Below, piece by piece: positions 42,331 to 44,954 of a DNA stretch of 64,000 nt; positions within the stretch are counted from its first letter, which is position 1, and the number at the start of each line of letters is the position of its first letter. Below the pieces are notes generated by a model. That model saw nothing but the letters and a program-made list of their open reading frames with translations, made no database searches and was not told the origin of the DNA. Where the stretch lies: positions 558,001-622,000 of the forward strand of contig CP102405.1 in the NCBI GenBank assembly GCA_024628785.1. Direction: 5' to 3'. The DNA comes from Fusobacteria bacterium ZRK30. GTDB lineage: Bacteria; Fusobacteriota; Fusobacteriia; Fusobacteriales; Fusobacteriaceae. A program made the position numbers and the translations under genes.

Positions 42331-42359
42331 TTGATGCAGTTACTAAAGAATACTATAAT
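42331..42359 (+). promoter_or_regulatory. Promoter of the suf operon
   Basis: TTGATG (42331-42336), 17-base spacer, consensus TATAAT (42354-42359), about 40 bases before sufC. No IscR- or Fur-like palindrome is obvious around it. Confidence 0.75.
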
Positions 42360-42398
42360 AATTCTTGAATGCAGAAGTAAAGAATATGGATGTATAAA

Positions 42399-42959
42399 AT
42401 GTCAACATTATTGGAGATAAAAGGGTTAAAATCAAAAGCAGATGAAAAAGCTAAAGCTGGAATATTTCTTTCATTTCAATACCCGGAGGAGATCCCTGGA
42501 CTTACAGTGGAGGATTTTTTGAGAGCTTCAAATGGTTCAATAACAGGAAAAAGACAATCAATAACAGGGTTTAGAAAAAAATTACATACAATGATGGAAG
42601 AACTGCATATAGATAAATCTTATGGAGACAGGCATTTGAATGTAGGGTTTTCTGGGGGAGAGAAAAAGAAAAATGAAATTCTTCAAATGGCTATCTTAGA
42701 ACCAAAGGTGGCTATCCTAGATGAAACAGATTCGGGGCTGGATATTGATGCAGTCAGGATCGTATATGAAGGTGTAGAAAAGTTAAGAAATGAAAATAAT
42801 GCAATTATAGTAATCACTCATTATAACAAGGTACTTCAATACTTAAAGCCTGATCATGTACACATATTACACGATGGGAGAATTGTAAAATCTGGTGGGG
42901 TTGAGTTGGCTCATGAGATTGAAAAAGATGGTTTTGAAGAAATAAAAAGGGCATTTTAG
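42399..42959 (+). pseudogene. sufC: SufC ATPase lacking the Walker A region (internal in-frame deletion)
   Basis: SufC is the ABC-type ATPase of the SUF Fe-S scaffold SufBC2D. Here 186 residues are encoded instead of about 245-250. The start MSTLLEIKGLK is normal, but it passes directly into SKADEKAKAGIFLSFQYPEE, which is normally some 60 residues further on; the missing part contains the P-loop GPNGxGKST. Still present are the Q-loop Gln27, signature FSGGEKKKNE (84-93), Walker B VAILDETDSGLD (104-115) and His141. Without Walker A, ATP hydrolysis is not expected. The frame stays open and the ribosome site is weak (ATGGATG). Either a decayed gene, a repurposed protein or an assembly error; I mark it as a broken gene. 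Confidence 0.85.
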
Positions 42960-42970
42960 GGGTGAAAAAA

Positions 42971-44515
42971 ATGGAAACAAGAACGCATGTAGAAGATGTA
43001 GATAGAGGAATATATGATGTTATAGATAAAGAAAATCACAGTTATAAGAGTAAAAAAGGGTTAACTGAAGAGATTGTGGTGGAGATGTCAAAAGAGAAGA
43101 AAGAACCTCAATGGATGCTGGATCTCAGATTAAAATCACTAAGAATTTACAATAAAAAACCTATGCCAACTTGGGGAGCAGATCTTTCAGAGCTGGATAT
43201 AGATGGGATAATTCACTATGTAAAGCCTGATACAGAACTAAATGAATCCTGGGAAGAAGTGCCCAGTGATATAAAAAATACCTTTGATAGATTAGGAATA
43301 CAGGAAGCTGAAAAAGCATCTCTGGCAGGGGTAGGAGCTCAGTATGACTCAGAAGTTGTATATCATAAAGTAAATAAAGAGTTGGAAAAATTAGGAGTAA
43401 TCTACACAGACATAGAAACAGCTGTAAAAGAACATGAAGAGATAGTAAAAAAATACTTCATGAAACTGATAACTCCTAACGATCATAAATTTTTAGCCCT
43501 TCACGGAGCAGTCTGGTCGGGAGGATCATTTGTATATGTGCCAAAGGGTGTTCATGTAGAACTGCCTTTACAATCATATTTTAGACTGAATGCTAAGGGG
43601 GCGGGCCAATTTGAACACACGATGATAATAGTAGAAGAGGGAGCCAGTCTCCACTTCATAGAGGGCTGTTCAGCACCAAAGCATACTGAACAGGCACTTC
43701 ATGCTGGAGCAGTAGAGTTATTTGTAAAAAAAGGAGCTAAACTAAGATATTCGACTATTGAAAATTGGTCTAGAAATATGTATAACCTGAATACTAAAAG
43801 GTGTGTAGTAGAAGAAGATGGAATTATTGAATGGATTTCTGGTTCATTTGGTTCAAAGGTTTCTATGTTATACCCAATGAGTATTTTAAAGGGAGAGAGA
43901 GCCAGATGTGAATTTACAGGTATAAGTTTTGCTTCTACAGGCCAGTACCTGGATACTGGTGCCAAGGTAGTCCATGTAGCTCCTTATACAATTTCTATAG
44001 TAAACTCTAAGTCTATTTCAAAGAATGGAGGTAGGGCATTTTATAGGGGATTGTTAAAAGTGGCTCCTAATGCTCACTCTGTGAAAGCAACAGTGAACTG
44101 TGAATCGCTGATGCTGGATAATATATCAAAATCCGATACTGTACCTACAATAGAATTATTAAATGACCAGGTAGATATCGGACTAGAAAACATTAGTTCT
44201 TATGAAGATGACATTTTAAACTATGCTGTAGGAAAATTAAAGGGTTTAGAAGAGATAACGTTATATTGTGACGCTGTTTCTCGTAAAACGCCGGTTATAG
44301 CATTTAATGTAGAGGGGGTTCATCCCCATGATGTGGCTCAAGTGCTGGATTTAAAAAATGTGGCTATCAGGACAGGGCATCATTGTACTCAGCCGCTAAT
44401 GAAGTATTTGGAGATACCATCATGTTGCAGGGCTAGCTTTTCAATCTATAATACTTATGAAGATGTAGATAAATTAGTTGAAGGGTTGTATAAAGTAATT
44501 AGTTACTTTAGATAG
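42971..44515 (+). pseudogene. sufB: SufB-SufS chimaera (SufB N-terminal part fused in frame to SufS C-terminal end)
   Basis: Residues 1-404 are SufB, the Fe-S scaffold subunit (HGAVWSGGSFVYVPKGVHVELPLQSYFR, EFTGISFASTGQYLDTGAKVVH, VNCESLMLDN with the conserved Cys377, SDTVPTIELLNDQVDIG). SufB normally continues HEATVGxIxxEQLFYLMSRG. Here the frame changes at VDIG/LENI (near base 44180) into the last 110 residues of SufS, the cysteine desulfurase: VIAFNVEGVHPHDVAQVLD, RTGHHCTQPLMKYL with active-site Cys472, and ASFSIYNTYEDVDKLVEGL. The SufC-docking end of SufB, all of SufD, and the PLP-lysine part of SufS are missing. The ATG at 42971 follows AGGGGTG; a GTG three codons earlier overlaps it. 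Confidence 0.9.
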
Positions 44516-44525
44516 GAGGAAGAAA

Positions 44526-44954
44526 ATGGATTTAGATAAAATTTATACTGAAGTTATTATGGATCACAATAAGAGCGGGCATAATAAAAGAGAGTTAGAA
44601 AATCCTGATTATACAGAGAGAGGTCATAATCCAAATTGTGGAGATGACTTTACAATTCAATTAAAAATTGAAAGAAATAAAATAGTAGATGGTGGGTTTG
44701 CAGGAGTAGGGTGTGCTATCTCTACAGCTTCAGCCTCAATTTTATTTGATTTAATAATTGGAAGAGAAGTACAGGACGGGAAAAGGATAGTAGAGAACTT
44801 CTTGAAAAAGATAAAACAAGAAGAGATCAGTGAAGGTGATAGGGAAGAATTAGAAGATGCTGGGTTGTTAGAGAATATATCTAATATGCCGGGGAGAGTA
44901 AAATGTGCTACATTAGCCTGGAATGGAGTGAAAGTTATCTTCGAAAAATTATAA
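44526..44954 (+). CDS. sufU: SufU-type Fe-S assembly / sulfur-transfer protein
   Basis: 142 residues of the IscU/SufU fold. The metal-ligand set is complete: Cys38 and Asp40 in NPNCGDD, Cys63 in GVGCAIS, and Cys127 in GRVKCATLAW. The stretch between (NFLKKIKQEEISEGDREELEDAGLLENISNMP) is the SufU-specific insertion. In Firmicutes SufU binds zinc and accepts sulfur from SufS. Here its partner SufS survives only as the C-terminal tail of the upstream chimaera, so how SufU would be loaded is unclear. TAGGAGGAA precedes the ATG. No defect is seen in this gene. Confidence 0.93.
   Translation: MDLDKIYTEVIMDHNKSGHNKRELENPDYTERGHNPNCGDDFTIQLKIERNKIVDGGFAGVGCAISTASASILFDLIIGREVQDGKRIVENFLKKIKQEEISEGDREELEDAGLLENISNMPGRVKCATLAWNGVKVIFEKL

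Follow-up and report, generated by a model that had tools for sequence, protein, structure and literature searches.

Two in-frame deletions in the sufCBDSU operon of Fusobacteria bacterium ZRK30 and its probable decay

The suf locus and its lesions

The locus described here lies on contig CP102405.1 of Fusobacteria bacterium ZRK30 (assembly GCA_024628785.1), within a stretch of 64,000 nucleotides that was analysed as a whole and is referred to as the window. It contains sufU in full, together with remnants of sufC, sufB and sufS and a degraded promoter and ribosome-binding site in front of them (Table 1). Genome G007, the nearest relative compared and a member of the same genus, serves as the reference throughout.

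Table 1. Features of the suf locus, in window coordinates
Feature	Position	Strand	Remarks
sufC promoter, degraded	42331..42359	+	TTGATG-17-TATAAT (G007: TTGACA-17-TATAAT, 12/12)
Ribosome-binding site, degraded	42388..42392	+	GGATG (GGAGG in G007 and nearly all relatives)
sufC remnant	42399..42959	+	186 aa; Walker A region absent; 183 bp missing after 42431
sufB remnant	42962..44181	+	breaks off just short of the conserved His-Glu pair and the C-terminal domain that binds SufC
sufS 3' quarter	44182..44515	+	in-frame fusion with sufB; no sufD and no PLP-lysine region of sufS (2187 bp missing)
sufU	44526..44954	+	full length

The translated SufC frame (42399-42959) starts with MSTLLEIKGLKSKADEKAKAGIFLSF, and its product joins MSTLLEIKGLK straight to SKADEKAKAGIFLSF. 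Alignment with G007 sufC, whose product of 247 residues has GPNGAGKST in place, places the loss after base 42431 and sizes it at 183 bp, or 61 residues including the P-loop, in agreement with the 60 or so residues given in the initial annotation. The Q-loop (SFQYP), signature (FSGGEKK), Walker B (VAILDETDSGLD) and H-loop (ITHYN), which the same annotation had listed as intact, are indeed all four retained, as judged from the sequence and from the G007 protein aligned to a solved SufC. The Walker A or P-loop motif GPNGxGKS/T, in contrast, is found in G007 and the relatives but not in the window, and with GPNGxGKST absent we agree that this SufC is not expected to bind ATP normally. In a profile search, the match to the NCBIfam sufC family spans only positions 69-243 of 243, but it reaches 236.9 bits against a curated cut-off of 212.8 despite the missing ATP site. 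The first junction (42431/42432) carries an exact TCAAA inside an imperfect 19-base repeat (TCAAAgGtAGAaGAtAAAG / TCAAAaGcAGAtGAaAAAG), and this, rather than the 'LK' first proposed, is the actual repeat.

The neighbouring gene was also correctly described as having an in-frame deletion, which we find to be a SufB-SufS fusion. The frame at 42962-44515 follows SufB through VDIG and is joined there to SufS from GLENI; alignment with G007 shows that 2187 bp, including the whole of sufD, are missing at 44181/44182. The two deletions are separate events, as had been claimed, and both lengths are multiples of three. At the second junction GG alone is shared, within GATATxGG/GAGATTGG, with little homology. 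The break falls just before the C-terminal helical SufC-binding domain and the conserved His-Glu pair that mark a functional SufB, and the pair of G007 SufB, aligned to the E. coli Glu434 region, sits just beyond it. The SufS part covers profile positions 290-403 of 403; the first 289 positions are absent, and with them both the PLP-binding lysine and the full-length enzyme expected of a functional SufS. No stop codon occurs inside the suf remnants, and matches to TIGR01978, TIGR01980 and TIGR01994 exceed the cut-off in this locus. The E. coli SUF system no longer works once sufC is lost, or in vivo when the ATP site of SufC is mutated, and Glu434 is a critical residue of SufB (PMC6006206). 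A working SufBC2D-SufS machine made from the remnant products does not seem plausible, and these products are presumably inactive.

The regulatory sequences ahead of sufC have changed as well. The promoter matches the consensus at 10/12 positions, which makes it weakened and not destroyed, and 12 bases just upstream of it are absent relative to G007. The change in the ribosome-binding site at 42391 also creates an in-frame ATG at 42390.

The locus in relatives and other Fe-S genes

The operon sufC-sufB-sufD-sufS-sufU is complete in G007 and is flanked there by the same neighbours as here. The P-loop is kept in about 25 suf-bearing relatives. Among 80 more related loci, from other bacteria, it is missing from just one, which a contig end truncates, and three have GKT in place of GKS. 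No relative has truncated forms like those of the window; the four of these 80 loci that were flagged are the contig-end case and the three with GKT. Since G007 is intact at the same locus and the P-loop is present in the relatives, the losses are derived in this genome, and an intact copy in a close relative combined with derived lesions here is the pattern of a pseudogene operon. The comparison with sufC of relatives proposed in the initial annotation thus shows a normal gene with the same flanks in G007.

This genome holds no second copy of sufC, sufB or sufD: it has a single SUFBD_core match and, apart from the remnant, no close sufC, and no SufS in it scores above its cut-off. SUFBD_core and close SufC matches are likewise absent from the genus-mates G001-G006; several of these genomes are incomplete, but completeness is 98-99% for G002 and G006. 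The suf operon is missing from G002, where the gene on its upstream side is followed almost directly by rRNA-side sequence. A sufU relic of about 60 bases lies at this empty site (G002:C11 415-495; local score 68 against a maximum of 45 in 300 shuffles), indicating that the operon was once present there and was then lost. We found no report in the literature on SUF loss in this genus.

An intact NifU_clost gene and a NifS-type gene stand side by side at G000:C2:420249-421818, where G000 denotes this genome. The NifS-type desulfurase scores 509.9 bits, just below the curated cut-off of its family (530.75). The pair is probably the working Fe-S system here, and SUF would then be dispensable in this genus, as NifS-NifU can make Fe-S clusters. 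We further note a second NifU_clost gene at G000:C2:1789683-1790090, beside a methionine adenosyltransferase gene and with no adjoining NifS.

Decay and its alternatives

The locus follows the SufU-type sufCBDSU operon of Fusobacteriota and Clostridia in the order of its genes, in sequence and in its position, all as in G007, and differs from it in having a SufC without Walker A, a truncated SufB fused to the end of SufS and no SufD. The missing SufD is shared with the SUF-like minimal system SmsB-SmsC, which has SufBC without SufD; here, however, there is no ATP site, and the SufB part is far closer to the sufB profile (600 bits) than to SmsB (192 bits). With the eroding operons, or pseudogenes, of bacteria whose Fe-S systems are redundant, the locus shares clustered deletions, regulatory decay and a relic in a sister lineage, although the frames here are still open. 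The case looks like the ordinary decay of a redundant gene cluster.

The early and fairly recent decay of a dispensable sufCBDSU operon is very probably what the locus records. SUF would be redundant where the NifS-NifU pair supplies Fe-S clusters; point changes may then have weakened the sufC promoter and ribosome-binding site, one deletion would have taken the P-loop of SufC, and the other would have begun near the end of sufB, taken out sufD and stopped within sufS, presumably in about this order. The frame may have been kept by chance, or perhaps since a loss of frame would have a stronger polar effect on sufU. Points against decay are the conservation of the remnants, the lack of stops, the in-frame nature of both deletions, the intact sufU and the ten matching promoter positions. 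With its open frames, the operon will be called by gene finders as a set of intact-looking genes, and HMM hits alone would wrongly assign a SUF pathway here, with sufC above the cut-off and without an ATP site. Intact in one species, broken but open in a second and a relic in a third, the operon offers a snapshot of the loss of a redundant Fe-S operon within a genus.

It is improbable that the losses are an artefact of assembly or consensus, in which two stretches of a suf operon that the strain has in full were dropped at short repeats. The initial annotation had raised an artefact of recombination or assembly at short homologies; a short repeat of some kind does occur at both junctions, and the genome (3.6 Mb) is in 5 contigs with a contamination estimate of 4.55%, but the exact shared repeats measure just 5 and 2 bases. 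We screened 400 kb, in stretches, for comparable lesions against G007 (30 collinear blocks, 92.9% identity), and coverage here exceeds 90% for 310 of the 318 G007 ORFs that have an orthologue. The ORF-coverage screen, with limits of 90% coverage and 80% identity, flagged sufC but missed sufB, sufD and sufS among the G007 genes; since it can overlook lesions of this kind, a list of gaps was added to it. Coding indels of at least 15 bp inside the aligned blocks number only three (15, 15 and 33 bp), and the other large gaps between blocks consist of complete genes, the beginnings or ends of genes, or DNA between genes, in either genome. The two suf losses are the only large ones in the 400 kb with both ends within conserved genes, and because no further conserved gene is interrupted by a large internal loss, a general assembly fault is unlikely; a local one keeps a small probability. 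The point changes in the promoter and ribosome-binding site of the same operon are independent of any assembly gap, and genus-mate G002 has lost this operon too.

Lower still do we rate the chance that the truncated products are selected and functional, the P-loop-less SufC and the SufB-SufS fusion acting as scaffold or regulator. Both deletion lengths being multiples of three and the low omega of the remnants speak for it; two in-frame deletions, however, arise by chance in 1 of 9 cases, so that no selection need be invoked. The selection to keep the products that was originally considered is also at odds with the degraded -35 element and ribosome-binding site, with a fusion that lacks parts both proteins need (the C-terminal domain of SufB and the catalytic lysine of SufS), with the loss of the operon in genus-mates and with the lack of such forms in the 80 related loci. 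That the P-loop-less SufC and the fusion are expressed and kept for a function, for example as an ATP-independent scaffold with SufU, is the least probable of these readings, and a new function for the P-loop-less SufC has no support.

Divergence and age of the losses

Pairwise omega against G007 is 0.106 for sufC, 0.045 for sufB, 0.143 for the sufS tail and 0.064 for sufU. These values fall in the range of the genome, where 271 orthologues have a median of 0.050 and a 90th percentile of 0.143. Because the omega of the remnants is still within this range, the losses are probably recent, the genes having stayed under selection through most of the period after the species split. Low omega and open frames fit a recent loss and would also fit retained function. 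Amino acid changes assigned to branches with four outgroups (this genome versus G007) number 2 versus 3 in sufC and 3 versus 4 in sufU, and 9 versus 3 in sufB and 9 versus 4 in the sufS tail; the excess on the side of this genome in the latter two is suggestive of relaxation, in counts too few to lean on. Synonymous divergence from G007 is uneven along the operon (42432-44951), with dS values of 0.16 in sufC, 0.28 in sufB, 0.68 in the sufS tail and 0.52 in sufU, which may reflect recombination inside the suf operon.
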